This document shows, piece after piece, positions 403 to 11,862 of a DNA stretch of 12,137 bases (its first letter is position 1; each line of letters begins with the position of its first letter). Origin of the DNA: Candidatus Latescibacterota bacterium (GTDB taxonomy: Bacteria > JAAXHH01 > JACQVL01); assembly GCA_016209865.1 (NCBI GenBank), contig JACQVL010000314.1, positions 1 to 12,137 of the forward strand. Reading direction: 5' to 3'. A model generated the notes under the pieces. The model ran no database searches and was not told the DNA's origin. It saw only the letters and a list, made by a program, of their open reading frames with translations. A program made the translations under genes and the position numbers.

Positions 403-430
403 GTCATCCCCGCGTACGCCGGAATCCAGC
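403..430. repeat. Intergenic palindromic repeat, copy 1
   Basis: This copy begins GTCATCCCCGCG and ends GGAATCCAGC. It matches the other copies at 1578-1603, 3566-3596, 5155-5185 and 5589-5614 in the GTCATnCCCGCG...GGAATCCA frame. Its right end abuts the stop codon of the dehydrogenase gene at 431-433. In general shape it resembles the widespread ATTCCC-N8-GGGAAT type repeats (dRS3-like in Neisseria). No coding role is visible. Confidence 0.75.
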
Positions 431-1531
431 TTAGCGACGCGTGGGCCGCATCGCTTCCCCGGTGAGCAGGAAGCTGCGGACGTCGTACCGTCCGGGCCGT
501 TCGACGGGAAGCGCGCCCGATTCGACCATCAGGTCGAGGGGGTTGGCCCGCGTCTTGAGGGGGAGGCGGACGACCTCATGGCAGCGGGCCGACTCGTACA
601 CTCCCATCATGACGTGCATCGTCCACAGGCCGTTCTCGGCCTGGCCGCGATGGACGCAGCGGTCCTCGATCCAGTCGACCAACTCCTCCGCCTGACTCGC
701 CATCGGGTCGGCCTTCTCCACCGGCACGTCCTTCCATCCACGGGTCCTGGCGTTGAAGTACCGCACCCACCCGTCATCGAAATCGAGCATCCCATCGATC
801 CCCTGCACGAACGCCCAGGCCGCGTCCCCTGGAATCAGGTCCGTCTGAAAATTTCCCTGAATCCCCCCCTCGAACATCAGGAAGCCCGCCACGCAGTCCT
901 CGCACCGCACATCCCGCTCGTACCGGTCGGTCTTGCGCTCGACCTGCCCGAACACCCACTCCACCTTCGGGTCGCCCAGGACATACCGCATGCAGTCGAG
1001 GCCGTGACTGGTGGCGTTGAGCAGGCCGGTCTCACGGGTGTGCGACACCCGCTTCGGGACGCCGACCGCCCCGTCCGCGACCAACTCCTTCGCCTTGCAC
1101 CAGGCGGGAAGGAACCGTCGCTGGAAGCCGATGGCCAGCTTGACCCGGTTGCGCTGGCAGGCGATCATCATCTCTTCCGCCTCGCCTAAGGAAGTCGCCA
1201 TCGGCTTTTCACACAGGATGGCCTTCGGCTGGCGGGCGGCGGCGGCGATCGTCATCTCCGCGTGGAACGGATGCCAGGTGCAGACGCTGACGATGTCCGG
1301 CCGCTCGGTGTCGAGCATCGCGCGGAGATCCGTGTAGGCCGTCCGGATGCCGTATTGTTCCGCGAACTGCCGCGCCCGCGGCTCGTCCACGTCCGCGCAC
1401 GCGACCAGGTCGATGCGCCCGGCCTGGACGTACCCGGATGCGTGCGCCCGGCCGATCGACCCGGTTCCGATGATGGCCGCACGGTAGCAAGCGCCGCGTT
1501 TCTTAGGAGACGATGTCTTCTGACGTGGCAT
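431..1531 (-). CDS. Gfo/Idh/MocA family NAD(P)-dependent oxidoreductase
   Basis: This 366-residue protein is the usual length for the family. An N-terminal Rossmann fold carries the GTGSIG dinucleotide loop at residues 22-27, with acidic residues at the end of the second strand (ACADVD, about 45-49). The family signature EKP is at 108-110; its lysine normally takes part in catalysis. SHGLD at 175-179 corresponds to the G-x-x-x-D-x-x-H-type motif that supplies the catalytic acid/base residues. The family oxidises or reduces sugars, inositols and related polyols, and is cytoplasmic. The ATG at 1531 follows AGGAG by five bases. The gene lies 148 bp downstream of a second, clearly different Gfo/Idh/MocA gene; that gap is filled with repeats. 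The substrate cannot be read from sequence; paired paralogues next to an amidohydrolase suggest carbohydrate or N-compound catabolism (inference). Confidence 0.9.
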   Translation of the reverse strand: MPRQKTSSPKKRGACYRAAIIGTGSIGRAHASGYVQAGRIDLVACADVDEPRARQFAEQYGIRTAYTDLRAMLDTERPDIVSVCTWHPFHAEMTIAAAARQPKAILCEKPMATSLGEAEEMMIACQRNRVKLAIGFQRRFLPAWCKAKELVADGAVGVPKRVSHTRETGLLNATSHGLDCMRYVLGDPKVEWVFGQVERKTDRYERDVRCEDCVAGFLMFEGGIQGNFQTDLIPGDAAWAFVQGIDGMLDFDDGWVRYFNARTRGWKDVPVEKADPMASQAEELVDWIEDRCVHRGQAENGLWTMHVMMGVYESARCHEVVRLPLKTRANPLDLMVESGALPVERPGRYDVRSFLLTGEAMRPTRR

Positions 1532-1548: not shown

Positions 1549-1562
1549 ATCGGGGTACGGGA
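1549..1562. repeat. Heptamer pair, left arm of composite element
   Basis: Read on the minus strand these bases are TCCCGTA followed by CCCCGAT, two units of a YCCCGNA heptamer. They lie inverted relative to the longer heptamer array at 1647-1680, with palindrome copy 2 between the two arms. Confidence 0.6.
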
Positions 1563-1577
1563 AAAGCAACAGATGAA

Positions 1578-1603
1578 TGGATTCCCGCTTTCGCGGGCAT
1601 GAC
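1578..1603. repeat. Intergenic palindromic repeat, copy 2
   Basis: TGGATTCCCGC, then TTTC, then GCGGGCATGAC. Read on the minus strand it forms CCCGC-GAAA-GCGGG, a perfect five-pair stem closed by a GNRA-type tetraloop. It is inverted relative to copy 1. It sits in the middle of the 148-bp gap between the two dehydrogenase genes. There is no T-tract, so it is not an obvious intrinsic terminator. Confidence 0.8.
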
Positions 1604-1646
1604 AGTCGAGCATTCACACGTTGTTTCACGCTGTTCGCTTTGCCTT

Positions 1647-1680
1647 TCCCGTATCCCGCACCCCGTACCCCGAATCCCGT
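1647..1680. repeat. Tandem heptamer array YCCCGNA, nearly five units
   Basis: Consecutive units are TCCCGTA, TCCCGCA, CCCCGTA, CCCCGAA and TCCCGT. The array ends on the first base of the stop codon of the dehydrogenase gene at 1680-1682. Together with 1549-1562 and palindrome copy 2 it forms one inverted composite element. Two more units of the same heptamer occur at 8941-8954. Confidence 0.75.
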
Positions 1681-3565: not shown

Positions 3566-3596
3566 GATGATAGAGTCTCGCTTGCGCGGGAATGAC
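3566..3596. repeat. Intergenic palindromic repeat, copy 3
   Basis: GATGATAGAGTCTCGC, then TTGC, then GCGGGAATGAC. It has the same orientation as copy 2 but a degenerate left arm (GAGTCTCGC instead of GATTCCCGC). It lies in the 90-bp gap between lgt and the creatininase-family gene. Unlike most copies it does not touch a stop codon. Confidence 0.65.
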
Positions 3597-5154: not shown

Positions 5155-5185
5155 TGATGATGGAGTCCCGCGTCTGCGGGAACGG
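5155..5185. repeat. Intergenic palindromic repeat, copy 4
   Basis: GATGATGGAGTCCCGC, then GTCT, then GCGGGAACGG, close to copy 3 in its left arm. It occupies almost the whole 34-bp gap between the cupin stop (5186-5188) and the CPBP GTG start (5151). It therefore lies where the CPBP ribosome binding site would be expected. Confidence 0.65.
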
Positions 5186-5509
5186 TTATCGGTATTCCTG
5201 GCGAGGCGGGCTGAACACGTCCAGCGCCTTCGACAGGACGGGGACCTCTGGCACCCCGTGGAGGACGTTGGAGGGGATGACGTACGTATCCCCCTGCTTC
5301 ACCACCCGCCGCTCGTCTCCGATGACGAACACGAACTCCCCGTCTAAGACGAGGCCGAGTTGCTCGTGCGGATGGCTGTGAATCGGCACGCTCGACCCCG
5401 GCGTCAACGTCACGAACGACAGCATCGCGTTGTCGCCGGACACCACCTTGATGTCAACCCCCGGCGCGATGCTCCGGCCCTTCATGTCGGCCTCGGCGAA
5501 GAAAAACAT
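5186..5509 (-). CDS. Small single-domain cupin protein
   Basis: 107 residues, one cupin domain. Motif 1 is PIHSHPHEQLGLVLDGEF (42-59), giving possible metal ligands H44, H46, H48 and E49/Q50. Motif 2 is GDTYVIPSNVLHGV (73-86), with H84 as the last ligand. Such proteins bind a metal and may be small dioxygenases, isomerases or sensors. The sequence predicts no signal peptide, so it is cytoplasmic. The reading frame is open further upstream to 5575, but the ATG at 5509 has AGGAGG just before it and the extra stretch runs through heptamer repeats, so the shorter form is chosen. It lies between the aminotransferase and the CPBP gene. Function not assigned. Confidence 0.85.
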   Translation of the reverse strand: MFFFAEADMKGRSIAPGVDIKVVSGDNAMLSFVTLTPGSSVPIHSHPHEQLGLVLDGEFVFVIGDERRVVKQGDTYVIPSNVLHGVPEVPVLSKALDVFSPPRQEYR

Positions 5510-5525: not shown

Positions 5526-5637
5526 CAGTGACGAGTGACGAGTAAGACCGATGTGCTGTAATAATGGCGCATCATGGTAGCTCAGGTTGTCATTCCCGCG
5601 CAAGCAGGAATCCATTTTTTCACTCGCCACTCGTCAC
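5526..5637. repeat. Composite repeat: inverted GTGACGA heptamer arms around palindrome copy 5
   Basis: The left arm has GTGACGA at 5528-5534 and 5535-5541. The right arm (5620-5637), read on the minus strand, is GTGACGA, GTGGCGA, GTGA. Between them lies palindrome copy 5 (5589-5614, GTCATTCCCGCG...GGAATCCA). The right arm contains the stop codon of the aminotransferase gene (5634-5636). The left arm is repeated almost identically at 6863-6882. Confidence 0.75.
5589..5614. repeat. Intergenic palindromic repeat, copy 5
   Basis: GTCATTCCCGCG, then CAAG, then CAGGAATCCA. This is the copy closest to the ATTCCC-N8-GGGAAT form. Its plus-strand translation gives the VIPAQAGIH-type string typical of spurious proteins called from such repeats. 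Confidence 0.8.
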
Positions 5638-6809
5638 ACACTGTATACCCCGCTCGCCGCCGTCACCCCGCTGTCCTTCACTCGATGGCCTTCCGCCCGC
5701 AACACCTGCTCCAGCGCGCTCAGGAAAAGGAGAACGTGGTCTTTCGACGACGACTGGCCCATCAGACCGACGCGCCAGGCTTTCCCCTTCAGCGCGCCGA
5801 GTCCTCCGCCGATCTCGATGCCGTACTCCGTGAGGAGCCGTCTTCGGACTTTCAGCTCATCGATGCCGTCTGGCGCCAGGATGGGGTTGATCATCGGCGC
5901 GCGGTACGGCTCGTCGACGAAGAACTTCAGCCCCATCGCCTCGATCCCGGCTTTGAACGCCCGGTAGTTGAGCGCATGGCGGGCGATGCCGTGCTCCAGT
6001 CCCTCCTCGTAGACGATGAGCAGCGCCTCGCGGAGGGCGTAGTTCATGTTGACGGGCGCGGTATGATGGTAGACGCGGTCCCCGCCCCAGTAGTTCTTGA
6101 CGAGAGACATGTCGAAGTACCAGCTCTGGACTTTGGTCTTCCGGTTCTGGATGGCCGACATCGCCCGGTCGTTCAGAGTCAACGGAGCAAGACCGGGCGG
6201 ACAGCTCAGGCACTTCTGGCTCCCGGAGTAGCAGGCGTCGATCCCCCACGCATCGACCTTCACGTGCGCGCCCCCTAAGGAGGCGACGGTATCGACGAGG
6301 AACAGCGCCCCGTGCTCGTGGACGACGTGAGCGATCTCGTCGAGCGGCTGCAACACCCCGGTCGACGTCTCGGCGTGGACGATGGCGACGAGTTTGGGAT
6401 GGCACGTCTGCAGCCGCTTCGCGATCTCATCAGGTGCGAAAGGTTTTCCCCATGCGCCAGCCATGCGGATCAGACGGCCGCCGCACCGCTCGACCATCTG
6501 GCACATGCGATCAGCAAAATACCCGCCGACGCAGACGACCACCTCATCGCCCGGCTCGATCAGGTTGCACAGACACGTCTCCATGCCCGCCGACCCGGTC
6601 CCGGACACCGGAATCGCAAACTCGTTCGTCGTCTCGAAAACGTACTGCAACAGCGCTTTCGTCTCATCCATCACCTTGAGAAAGTAGGGATCGAGATGCC
6701 CCACCAGCGGGGCGATCATCGCCTGGAGGACGCGGGGATGGACGTCGCTCGGGCCGGGTCCCATCAGCACCCGCTTCCCGGGGTTGAGCTGGGCATAAAT
6801 GTGAGACAT
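5634..6809 (-). CDS. PLP-dependent aminotransferase, alanine/serine-glyoxylate type
   Basis: 391 residues, the usual length for class V aminotransferases of the AGT/SPT group. LMGPGPSDVHPRVL (15-28) and SGTGSAGMET (69-78) are the N-terminal substrate and phosphate-binding regions. ETSTGVLQPL (147-156) is a family hallmark. D173 in LVDTVAS contacts the pyridine nitrogen. K199 in SGSQKCLSCPPG is the Schiff-base lysine, where AGT enzymes have SGSQKALxxPPG. The family moves amino groups between alanine or serine and glyoxylate or pyruvate; which pair is used here is unknown. The ATG at 6809 is placed by the motif start MSHIYAQ and a weak AAAGG upstream; the frame stays open to 7607 but that extension overlaps the CoA-transferase gene. 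It is separated from that gene by a 98-bp repeat-filled gap. Confidence 0.9.
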   Translation of the reverse strand: MSHIYAQLNPGKRVLMGPGPSDVHPRVLQAMIAPLVGHLDPYFLKVMDETKALLQYVFETTNEFAIPVSGTGSAGMETCLCNLIEPGDEVVVCVGGYFADRMCQMVERCGGRLIRMAGAWGKPFAPDEIAKRLQTCHPKLVAIVHAETSTGVLQPLDEIAHVVHEHGALFLVDTVASLGGAHVKVDAWGIDACYSGSQKCLSCPPGLAPLTLNDRAMSAIQNRKTKVQSWYFDMSLVKNYWGGDRVYHHTAPVNMNYALREALLIVYEEGLEHGIARHALNYRAFKAGIEAMGLKFFVDEPYRAPMINPILAPDGIDELKVRRRLLTEYGIEIGGGLGALKGKAWRVGLMGQSSSKDHVLLFLSALEQVLRAEGHRVKDSGVTAASGVYSV

Positions 6810-6832
6810 GGGGGAGACCTTTCGTGAAAAGC

Positions 6833-6907
6833 GGTGGTCGGTGGTCGGTAGTCGGTAACAATCAGTGACGAGTGACGAGTAAAACATAATCCACCGACCA
6901 CTGATCA
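6833..6907. repeat. Composite repeat: inverted GGTGGTC heptamer arms around GTGACGA units
   Basis: The left arm has GGTGGTC at 6833-6839 and 6840-6846, then GGTAGTC at 6847-6853. The core is GTGACGA at 6865-6871 and 6872-6878, flanked as in the copy at 5526. The right arm (6891-6907), read on the minus strand, is TGATCAGTGGTCGGTGG, inverted to the left arm. The element fills most of the gap between the aminotransferase and CoA-transferase beta genes and abuts the beta stop codon at 6908-6910. Confidence 0.75.
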
Positions 6908-7801
6908 TTAACCCGCCTTCTCCGCCGCCAGTTCGCGTTTGCTTTTTCGGCCGAGATAGATCCGCTCGGGATCGACGATCGTCCGCAGGACCTTCAACTC
7001 CTCGTATGTCGGCGGGGCCATCGTCCGGGCGTGAGAGATGTCCAGGTCCCAGCCGGTGTTCTCCTTGACGAGTTCGGGATCGATGCCCGGGAAGGCGATA
7101 TCGAGCTTGAGGATCCCGTCGTTCGGGTCGCTCCGCAGGACGCACAGGTCGCTGATGACGACCGTCTTCCCCCCTCGGGTCAGCCCGTAGTCGAACCGGG
7201 TCTCCCCCTTCGGGCCGCGGAGGCCGGTGATGCTCGTCAGGTATTCCACCCGTTCCGGGAACCGGCGCTTCTCGTGCACCATCATCACTAACAGCATGTC
7301 GGCCAGGGAGGCGATGTTGTTCGCCCCGCCGCTCCCGGCGAACCGCACCTGCGGGCCGTGTCCGGTGCCCGACACCCGGGCCGGCCAGTAACTCCCGATG
7401 ACCGTCGAGTTCAGGTTGCCGTACTGGTCGCACTCCGCCCCGCCTAAGATGCCGACCGTGCAGAACCCCCGGAGCGCGGTCGTCCCGAACGTATCCGCCA
7501 TGTTCGACACGGTGCTGCCCCGCAGACAGCCGCGCGGGTCGGAGACGGAGATAGGCAGGTGCTCGATCTTCGGCCCGACGATCCCCGCCTCCATGATGAT
7601 CGTGCAATGAGGGGCGGTCGTCTTCTGGGCGAGCATCGTCCCGAGCAACGGCAGGCCGGTCCCGGCGAACGCGAACGAATCATCCGGGACTTCCCGCGCG
7701 GTGGCCACCGCCAGCAACTCCATCGTCGTGTACTCCTCCGGCTTCAGGCCACGATCCGTTAAAAACAGTTCATACTCCGCATCGGTCATCAACTCAGCCA
7801 T
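6908..7801 (-). CDS. Class I CoA-transferase-like protein, beta subunit
   Basis: 297 residues. FAFAGTGLPLLGTMLAQ (43-59), IIMEAGIVGP (68-77), GILGGAECDQYGNLNST (117-133) and GSGGANNIASLAD (157-169) follow the order seen in beta subunits of glutaconate, 3-oxoadipate and IpdB-type enzymes. E71 in MEAG is the candidate for the glutamate that forms the covalent CoA intermediate in true transferases; IpdAB hydrolases lack that glutamate, so this point bears on transferase versus hydrolase activity (inference, needs alignment). The ATG at 7801 has AAGGAG eight bases upstream and lies 15 bp after the alpha subunit, so the two are translated together and should form a heteromer. Next to a CoA ligase, the pair probably acts on an acyl-CoA in a ring or acid breakdown pathway. 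Confidence 0.87.
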   Translation of the reverse strand: MAELMTDAEYELFLTDRGLKPEEYTTMELLAVATAREVPDDSFAFAGTGLPLLGTMLAQKTTAPHCTIIMEAGIVGPKIEHLPISVSDPRGCLRGSTVSNMADTFGTTALRGFCTVGILGGAECDQYGNLNSTVIGSYWPARVSGTGHGPQVRFAGSGGANNIASLADMLLVMMVHEKRRFPERVEYLTSITGLRGPKGETRFDYGLTRGGKTVVISDLCVLRSDPNDGILKLDIAFPGIDPELVKENTGWDLDISHARTMAPPTYEELKVLRTIVDPERIYLGRKSKRELAAEKAG

Positions 7802-7816
7802 GCGTGGGTCTCCTTC

Positions 7817-8920
7817 TTACATCGGCCGTTCCAGGTCCGCCTTATACCCGTACCCGGGCGTCGCCCGCAGATGGAACAGCCGGTTCATCCCGACTTTGTG
7901 CATCAGGTACTCCCAGTCATCCGTCGTGGAGACGACGTGCTCCTGCCACCATGCCTTGACTTCTTCCTTCGACCGCCGGTTGACCCGGCCGTAGTTGACG
8001 AACCAGTCCCAATCGTAATCATAGTAGTTGGGGACGGCGGACGGGTACCCGCCGAACGGTTGTTCGACGATCGCGTCGACGATATGCGCCGGGATATGGT
8101 TGCGTTCGGGCGCCGCCCGCAACTCTTCCTCGGGTACGATCTGCTCGCATTCGACGATCAGGATTCTCGCCGCGATCGCCTGCTCGATGTCCGGCCCGAA
8201 GATACCTTCCAGGCGGACGGTTCCCTCATCCCCCACCTTCTGCGCCCGGAGGAGGGCGACTTCCGGGATGACAGGGGGGACGAGCACCACTTTCACGCCT
8301 GGATTCCCCGTATACTTGGTGGATCGTCGCGCCCCCTCCAGGTTGTTCGTCTGGTTGGCCGTGTTATCCCCGTCCTCGAACGCGTGCGGCCGGAGGCCCC
8401 ACCCGTCGAACGGGTCGTCGATGACGTGGAACTTCTTCGGCGGGATACGGGGATCGATCCAGTTGCCGTTCGCGTCCCGCCCGCGCAGCCCGGCCTTGCT
8501 GAAGACATCGTATTCGAGGATGTCCGACCCTAACTCCGAGACGAGCGGGGCGAACGGCCAGCCGTACTTCCCGGCGACCGTCCGGCTGGCGTACCCGTAG
8601 TTGCTGTAATCCTCGACGATCTCGATCTCCCCGTCCTGAATCCCCCGGCGGAAACTATTCGCCACCGGCTGGATGCCCTCCAGTCCCAGGTAGGTGCTCT
8701 CCACCCACTTGATCAGTCCGGCGGCGGCTAACGCCTCCTCACACGCGGTGCCGCCGTTCATCGTCAGGTACAGATTCCCGATGCCCTGCCGGATGATCTC
8801 CCGGACGAGGGTGAACGGACGACGGGTATAGCTGAACCCGCACGTGCAGACCTGCGTCCCGGGCTTGAGGTACCGGGCGATCGCCTCCTGGGCGGTCGTG
8901 ATTTTATTCGTATTCGCCAT
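7817..8920 (-). CDS. Class I CoA-transferase-like protein, alpha subunit
   Basis: 367 residues, longer than the roughly 290-320 usual for this subunit. The N-terminal part, KPGTQVCTCGFSYTRRPFTLVREI (19-42), matches the start of GctA/IpdA-type subunits (DG.I..GG....P...). LRAQKVGDEGTVRLEG (224-239) corresponds to the HaxxADxeGNV region, with several substitutions. QPFGGYPSAVPNYYDYD (287-303) resembles the PfGAHP...Y.YD motif of the family. The extra length lies mainly between 105 and 200, a stretch rich in Asp, Gly and Asn that may form a lid or substrate-specific insertion. The ATG at 8920 has a strong AGGAGG seven bases upstream. It follows the ligase gene by 38 bp and precedes the beta subunit by 15 bp. 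Substrate unknown. Confidence 0.87.
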   Translation of the reverse strand: MANTNKITTAQEAIARYLKPGTQVCTCGFSYTRRPFTLVREIIRQGIGNLYLTMNGGTACEEALAAAGLIKWVESTYLGLEGIQPVANSFRRGIQDGEIEIVEDYSNYGYASRTVAGKYGWPFAPLVSELGSDILEYDVFSKAGLRGRDANGNWIDPRIPPKKFHVIDDPFDGWGLRPHAFEDGDNTANQTNNLEGARRSTKYTGNPGVKVVLVPPVIPEVALLRAQKVGDEGTVRLEGIFGPDIEQAIAARILIVECEQIVPEEELRAAPERNHIPAHIVDAIVEQPFGGYPSAVPNYYDYDWDWFVNYGRVNRRSKEEVKAWWQEHVVSTTDDWEYLMHKVGMNRLFHLRATPGYGYKADLERPM

Positions 8921-11558: not shown

Positions 11559-11656
11559 AATGATGAATGCAGAATGATGAACGATGAATGAAAAACCAGA
11601 AACGGCAAAGAACGGGCCGGTTTTCATTCATCATTCCGCATTCATCATTCATCGTT
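11559..11656. repeat. Inverted AATGATG heptamer arrays in the SPOR gene leader
   Basis: Left arm units: AATGATG, AATGCAG, AATGATG, AACGATG, AATGAAA (11559-11593). Right arm, read on the minus strand from 11656: AACGATG, AATGATG, AATGCGG, AATGATG, AATGAAA (to 11622). The arms face each other around about 28 bp, with AACC/GGTT at the base of the loop. Transcribed from the promoter at 11674-11702, this would form a long, A/U-rich hairpin in the 5' leader of the lipoprotein gene. No U-tract follows, so it is not a standard terminator. Confidence 0.8.
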
Positions 11657-11702: not shown

Positions 11703-11751
11703 CAGGTTTTTCCCGGCGAGGAGAGGGCAGAAAAGAGGGGAAAAGGAGAGA

Positions 11752-11862
11752 GTGGGCGAGTGGGGGAATGGGCGAAAAGGAGAGAATGGGCGAGTGGGCG
11801 ACGACATAGCCATCAGGCGGTCTCTTTCTCCCTCTCTCCCATTCTCCCATTCCCCCACTCTT
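11752..11862. repeat. Inverted octamer array, G/A-rich
   Basis: Left arm (11752-11801): GTGGGCGA, GTGGGGGA, ATGGGCGA, AAAGGAGA, two extra bases, ATGGGCGA, GTGGGCGA. Right arm, read on the minus strand from 11859: GTGGGGGA, ATGGGAGA, ATGGGAGA, GAGGGAGA. A 15-bp exact inverted match (GAGTGGGGGAATGGG) joins 11758-11772 and 11846-11860. The element fills the space between the TPR gene end and the promoter. Nothing else is seen in 11531-11901 apart from this, the heptamer array and the promoter. Confidence 0.75.

Follow-up and report, generated by a model that had tools for sequence, protein, structure and literature searches.

The closest precedent for the elements described here is provided by the GGGAATC heptamers of Xanthomonas, which occur in convergent pairs (70 in Xcc and 75 in Xac; Rehm et al., 2015; PMC4692102). 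These repeats have been found between co-directional genes and rarely between divergent ones, and they lie on the sense strand near the stop codon and on the antisense strand near the start codon (PMC4692102). It has been shown that 83% of the Xcc repeats are located in the same context in Xac, and they have been read as G-quadruplex elements (PMC4692102). In Nostoc, the P6b stem of the tRNA-Leu (trnL) intron consists of TDNGATT or NNTGAGT motifs, and independent lineages have repeatedly switched from one class of motif to another (Kaasalainen et al., 2015; PMC4476775). The TAACTGA heptamers of the Beggiatoaceae lie immediately before start codons as direct arrays, and only 1 of 170 sets is inverted (PMC4679880).

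In this study, inverted heptamer arrays were analysed in a stretch of 12,137 nt (hereafter the window), which is contig C273 of the draft genome G000 of a Candidatus Latescibacterota bacterium (3.75 Mb, 356 contigs, 83% complete). As in Xanthomonas, heptamers converge at junctions of co-directional genes and are G-rich after the stop codon. The Xanthomonas repeats are of one unit type, whereas many of the units found here lack G-tracts, the ends of the arms are conserved and palindromes occur in the loops. The Xanthomonas repeats are also mostly conserved between two species, whereas in the phages that also carry the present elements the units are replaced quickly. The Nostoc stem is likewise built of repeats and swaps its units, but it occupies a single intron locus, compared with hundreds of gene junctions here. 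The sequence-only reading of the window had suggested an element family that may be undescribed; this was too strong, because the same junction geometry has been reported with one unit (Rehm et al., 2015; PMC4692102). The kind of element is known in part; its multi-unit form, the decoupling of arms and core, the enrichment of a palindrome in the loops, and the presence and fast turnover in phages appear to be new with respect to the open-access papers searched.

Inverted arrays in the window

A tandem array followed by its own inverted copy had been claimed for five intergenic places in the window, and this layout was found at all five with small corrections of the coordinates (Table 1). A single fixed rule (a period-7 array with a score of at least 10 and its reverse complement with a score of at least 10 within 250 bp) recovered four heptamer elements, elements 1-4; in element 5 the period is 8. 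No elements were obtained with this rule in first-order Markov shuffles (200 of the whole window and 300 of intergenic DNA only). The arms of element 4 are 83% complementary. The aminotransferase gene (5634-6809) ends, on the mRNA strand, with the first TGA of the right arm of element 2. The inner GTGACGA array of element 3 has no inverted partner of its own and is a nested remnant. Rfam models had no matches in the window.

Table 1. Coordinates of the five inverted-array elements in the window
Feature	Position	Description
Element 1, whole	1550-1680	heptamer arms around palindrome-bearing core
Element 1, left arm	1550-1561	short, GGGTACG-type, TCGGGGTACGGG; adjoins start of gene 431-1531 (minus strand)
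Element 1, palindrome	1579-1603	ATTCCCGC..GCGGG..TGAC, within core
Element 1, right arm	1647-1680	TCCCGTA/CCCCGAA, 4.9 units; stop codon of gene 1680-2777 lies 1 nt from the arm end
Element 2, left arm	5527-5543	AGTGACGAGTGACGAGT, 2.4 units; cupin gene start 17 nt away
Element 2, palindrome	5589-5613	GTCATTCCCGCGCAAGCAGGAATCC, within core
Element 2, right arm	5622-5637	2.4 units
Element 3, outer left arm	6832-6856	CGGTGGT, 3.6 units
Element 3, inner array	6864-6880	GTGACGA, left-type; enclosed by GGTGGTC arms
Element 3, outer right arm	about 6891-6907	CCACCGACCACTGATCA; ends at stop codon of gene 6908-7801
Element 4, left arm	11559-11594	AATGATG units
Element 4, right arm	11621-11656	TCATTCA units
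Element 5, left arm	11750-11800	period 8, TGGGCGAG/A
Element 5, right arm	11827-11861	period 8, TCTCCCAT/C

Abundance, period and unit families

Gene calls were made within this analysis, and 867 kb (23% of the draft genome) were sampled from G000. This sample contained 95 inverted elements with a period of 7 and nine with a period of 8, and each other period in the range 4-13 was represented by three elements or fewer. Elsewhere, inverted period-7 elements numbered three in 519 kb of order-mates, in which the unit of the G000 elements was looked for and found absent, and one in 649 kb of other named genomes; shuffled sequences gave none. The nearest relatives compared with G000 are from its order but from different families, and the phylum comprised 16 genomes. 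The shared architecture with interchangeable units that had been proposed from the window is therefore non-random and genome-wide. In the analyses of placement, arms and cores, 88 elements were used, a number that differs from 95 only by the merging of neighbouring arrays.

A sample of 474 kb contained 129 period-7 arrays, compared with 3 in Markov shuffles, and the only other clear excess was at multiples of 7, plus a little at period 8. Of the 118 arrays detected in the first 474 kb, 64 had an exact inverted partner at a distance of at most 250 bp and 54 had none; a direct partner was found for 5, a partner in the reversed control for none, and the reverse complement of a random other array for 8. 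The mostly solitary and randomly oriented occurrence that the sequence-only reading had named as counting against it is thus not what was found. Among neighbouring arrays at most 200 bp apart, 32 pairs were inverted, 1 was direct and 14 were unrelated. The TAACTGA arrays and the cyanobacterial STRRs are also intergenic tandem heptamers (PMC4679880), mainly in direct arrays, whereas inverted pairs prevail here. Some of the unrelated neighbours are chimeric, with the left arm of one family opposite the right arm of another, and others are nested (chimeric or nested examples are window 6832-6907 and L044:1863-2033).

Several families of units were observed, of which GTGACGA and GATTTTG were the commonest; AAGGACG, GGTGGTC and others were also present. 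Exact searches of the whole genome with two independent patterns gave 229 matches for AGTGACGAGTGACGA and 95 for GGATTTTNGATTTTGGATT, with no matches for the reversed control of the former or the control of the latter.

Polarity and placement at gene junctions

In each family with several pairs, the left arm carries a constant strand of the unit, and the number of exceptions to this polarity was 0. Read on the mRNA strand, a G-rich arm adjoins the upstream stop codon, and its C-rich complement precedes the next Shine-Dalgarno (SD) sequence; G exceeded C in the left arm of 87 of the 88 elements. Each element occupies the space from the stop codon of one gene to the SD of the next gene in the same direction. 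The genes around them were co-directional in 73 cases, convergent in 5 and divergent in 3 (n = 81), compared with 236, 21 and 50, respectively, for background gaps of at least 80 bp (n = 307). The upstream stop codon lay at a median of 4 nt from the element and the following start codon at a median of 22 nt, and the stop codon was located at or inside the edge of the element in 21 of 73 cases. Unpaired arrays followed the same orientation relative to genes (stop-proximal arrays G-rich, 43:8; start-proximal arrays C-rich, 17:2; p = 2e-8), which indicates that orientation belongs to each arm with respect to its gene and not just to the palindrome. In a Rho-independent terminator, a stem is followed by a U-tract at which the transcript ends. 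The edges of the arms here have A-rich or T-rich flanks, but the elements are located inside runs of co-directional genes.

It has been proposed for the GGGAATC repeats of Xanthomonas and Nostoc that function resides in a G-quadruplex formed by the G-rich arm. The excess of G in the left arms agrees with this, and the convergent pairs of Xanthomonas have the same G-rich geometry with respect to stop and start codons (PMC4692102). However, the commonest units (GTGACGA, GATTTTG, AAGGACG and AATGATG) are devoid of three-G tracts and are unable to form the canonical G-quadruplex, yet they have the same layout and position. A function of the elements through quadruplexes is for this reason very improbable. 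Canonical G-quadruplexes as a general explanation are refuted by the units without G-tracts; they could hold for the GGGATT and GGGGTC subsets.

The placement would also be expected of an intercistronic mRNA structure (a stabiliser, processing site or attenuator) of which only the fold matters. Units could then turn over freely, and heptamer arrays would keep long stems paired in many registers. The location exactly in the interval from stop codon to SD within pairs of co-directional genes, the depletion between divergent genes (3/81 vs 50/307 gaps), the strong folding (median z -6.3) and the persistence of the layout after replacement of the unit are all consistent with such a structure. The sense strand folded better than the antisense strand in 47 of 73 elements of G000 (p = 0.016), compared with p = 0.87 for control gaps. 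Yet no difference between sense and antisense was detected for the arms alone (p = 0.25). G-U and A-C oppositions in the pairing of the arms were 29 and 25 (p = 0.68), and in extended arms 95 and 73, with no significant excess. The sense bias was absent in phages (p = 0.44), and a spacer of 8-18 nt without a hairpin suffices at some orthologous junctions. A requirement for the fold would furthermore leave the common arm sequences and the arm ends conserved across loci unexplained. These data argue weakly for selection at the RNA level, and a structure in which the fold alone matters is a rather unlikely explanation of the elements.

Arms, cores and loop palindromes

Arms with AGTGACN units have conserved ends, AAAANC-(AGTGACN)n-GAGTAAAA, and those of the GATTTTG family have GGATT at the inner end. 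A similar arm was found at another locus for 152 of 176 arms, whereas a similar core was found for only 13 of 81 cores, several of them via other repeats or local duplication. Arms and core had been read from the window as one composite element, a view that these counts do not support. An arm and its own partner matched to about the same degree as that arm and the partners found at other loci. Together, the dispersal of the arms and this similar match argue for a spread of arms without cores and against a purely local correction of the palindrome. When compared with the 867-kb sample, 21 of 81 cores matched something, mainly other repeats or pieces of arms; cores are therefore not generally copies of genes.

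Slippage and the correction of quasi-palindromes are general processes, and they might act at each junction independently, with no copying among loci. The variation in unit copy number among relatives would be in line with this. On the other hand, units and conserved arm ends are common to many loci, the same arms of 30-45 nt are repeated, units are alike within a genome, and the match to an arm's own partner is not clearly above that to other loci. Independent local slippage is disfavoured and has, in our judgement, very little probability. Local palindrome correction as the main homogeniser was rejected on the comparison of own and other-locus partners.

The GTCATTCCCGC-type palindrome occurred at 3.35 copies per kb in cores and at 0.28 per kb in other intergenic DNA, a 12-fold enrichment, and its distance to the arms within the cores was variable. 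The palindrome thus appears to land preferentially, or to find refuge, in the loops, which do not look like a constituent of a fixed composite.

Orthologous junctions in phages and relatives

A scan of IMG/VR with two units gave 32 and 56 stretches, in which the arrays formed 77 inverted neighbour pairs with many additional units. The tested proteins of contigs L171, L184, L253, L254, L238, L255 and L182 match terminase, portal, head or tail families of phages. The heptamer-armed architecture is present in contigs of tailed phages as well.

Sister phages were retrieved mostly via the head protein and not via the repeat. At their orthologous junctions, we found three states: an empty spacer of 8-18 nt, an element with the same unit, and an element in which both unit and core differ. 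Junction A-B carries TTAGCCA in L171, AGTTGCC in L184 and L310, and a GCTGTCA-type unit in L319 and L325; in L311 it is only 12 nt long. Junction B-C carries AGTCGTT with an identical core in L171 and L184, AGTTGCC in L310 and AGTCGAT in L318, and it is reduced to 8 nt in L325. Junction J-K carries AGGCAGA in L171 and AGTCGCT in L318, and it measures 18 nt in L184 and 13 nt in L310. At the same junction, L319 and L325 share the right arm and differ in left arm and core. The units proposed to be interchangeable are thus present, absent or replaced among close relatives. Of the 69 elements with an alignable relative, 41 had a different unit in one or more of their counterparts, 22 had an empty or deleted counterpart and 33 had a counterpart with the same unit; some of these loci overlap, so the counts are not independent, and a few of the 'empty' calls are other short repeats. 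The number of unit copies also varies among relatives. Likeness of units was 0.21 within a contig and 0.08 between sister contigs (0 of 500 permutations).

In L319 and L325, core and one arm have been replaced and the other arm has been kept, which again speaks against a composite element. The sequence-only reading had expected the flanking arms to move together with the core between strains; this holds in part only, given the decoupling in this pair and the small number of similar cores.

Junction A-B of the sister phages L317 and L318 contains CCCTCACCCC...GGGGTGAGGG inverted spacers, a type of inverted repeat unrelated to the other occupants of the site. In the phage contig L238 (1209-8261; terminase, portal), the junction arms are AGGAGTT/AGGAGGT, that is, strings of SD-like words opposite CTCCT arms resembling the anti-SD.

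Among bacteria, the aminotransferase-cupin junction, which carries element 2 in G000, has a spacer of 18 nt in G013 and of 24 nt in G001, and the remaining relatives have unrelated sequence of other lengths. At about 70% protein identity, these relatives are too distant to define an exact empty site. The turnover of elements was demonstrated in phages only, and the bacterial comparison reaches no closer than other families. The cupin-creatininase junction of order-mates from genus g3 (L280-L289), which does not exist in G000, has a repeated spacer of its own, GCGAGACCCGCCGCGGCTTTCACA, in tandem in L283.

Possible origin and mode of spread

Inverted ends with conserved edges, dispersed copies, polymorphism of presence and absence with precise junctions, and the insertion of other repeats would be compatible with a non-autonomous element of MITE or foldback type moved by a transposase. 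The arms would then be terminal inverted repeats recognised by a putative transposase that targets gene junctions, and the fixed polarity and conserved arm ends would fit this as well. However, cores within a family are not homologous, the many families of units in one genome would all need to be recognised, and the core has been swapped next to a constant arm in L319 and L325. Y1/RAYT transposases (PF01797) had no matches in the 83%-complete G000, and control matches were obtained in 5 of 14 genomes. Inspection of flanks by eye, unscored, revealed no clear target-site duplications. Movement by a transposase is considered unlikely.

As in MITEs, terminal inverted repeats are common to the copies, but the internal sequence is not common to copies of a family (13/81 cores). 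REPINs and REP sequences are, like the present elements, short, dispersed intergenic inverted pairs with a variable loop that form hairpins (PMC3116915; PMC3733652), and the core palindrome is REP-like. In contrast to REPINs, the arms are tandem heptamers, C-poor on one strand, and not palindromes, a hairpin forms only between arms, the loops are not conserved, and a RAYT-type Y1 transposase was not found in G000. The doublet layout is alike, and the elements depart from REPINs in two defining properties. Foldback transposons of Drosophila (FB/Galileo) have inverted termini of short tandem repeats and variable cores, and they are eukaryotic, kilobase-sized and transposase-linked. The present elements may be likened to them in having tandem-repeat inverted termini round variable cores.

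The explanation that we prefer, to which we give about an even chance, is a gene-junction foldback cassette, the arms of which are spread and homogenised by annealing or template switching and which is tolerated as an intercistronic RNA hairpin. On the mRNA strand, the first part of such a cassette would be a G-rich arm of tandem heptamers that starts at, or supplies, the stop codon; an arbitrary loop, at times with a palindromic repeat, would follow, and the C-rich reverse-complement arm would come last, just before the SD of the next gene. We infer that the arms spread from one junction to another as copies. The copying would proceed via strand annealing or template switching during replication or recombination, with the arrays serving as many-register patches of homology and the hairpin promoting the stalling of forks. 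Slippage could afterwards adjust the number of units, and the loops would arise as by-products in which other repeats accumulate as well. The cassette would be tolerated, and perhaps mildly selected or useful as RNA, because the folded RNA is confined to the interval from stop codon to SD and touches neither gene. Since any 7-nt word would suffice, units could drift and be replaced. Annealing alone leaves the preference for period 7, with a little for period 8, unaccounted for. MacGregor (2015; PMC4679880) cites a proposal in which the length of 7 nt may correspond to the segment of DNA in contact with the polymerase.

The units, which can be swapped or lost, point to a fast-changing and barely described DNA element common to bacteria and phages. 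It is possible, and suggested here with reserve, that this is a class defined by architecture (any 7-nt tandem word, inverted, polar and placed from stop codon to SD), present in bacteria and phages and maintained by dedicated or recombination-based copying with a built-in period of 7 nt. Its members may swap between phage and host and act as interchangeable linkers for gene-by-gene recombination. If the elements are linkers of gene junctions, they would bear on gene exchange among phages. One architecture covers the G-rich heptamers of Xanthomonas, the Nostoc intron stem and possibly other heptamer arrays, and the present findings argue against the G-quadruplex as the general reading. The junctions of sister phages, which are empty or carry the same or another unit between nearly identical genes, make it testable why tandem repeats of bacteria so frequently have a length of 7 nt, an old question, and how they spread.

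Other repeats and loci

The pair of CoA-transferase genes in the window (6908-8920) is 56-67% identical to Bacillota loci (L071-L074), and it was possibly acquired by horizontal transfer. Degenerate or further copies of the GTCATTCCCGC..GCGGGAAT palindrome were found outside heptamer arms in the window (403-427, 3572-3596 and 5162-5186), and the pattern had 130 exact matches in the genome. This palindrome resembles the tagged REP families (PMC3733652), to which it may belong. Two further dispersed repeats of about 50-65 nt were observed inside the heptamer-armed cores L055:2928-3104 and L067:9141-9335, with copies in L309, L293, L045, L038 and L052. The TGGGCAA/CTGCCC family is an exception to the decoupling of arms and core: both are conserved among its copies (L047:16024-16095, L055:5617-5679, L057:9523-9593, L066:12599 and L067:18143), and it therefore behaves as an ordinary whole-element repeat.
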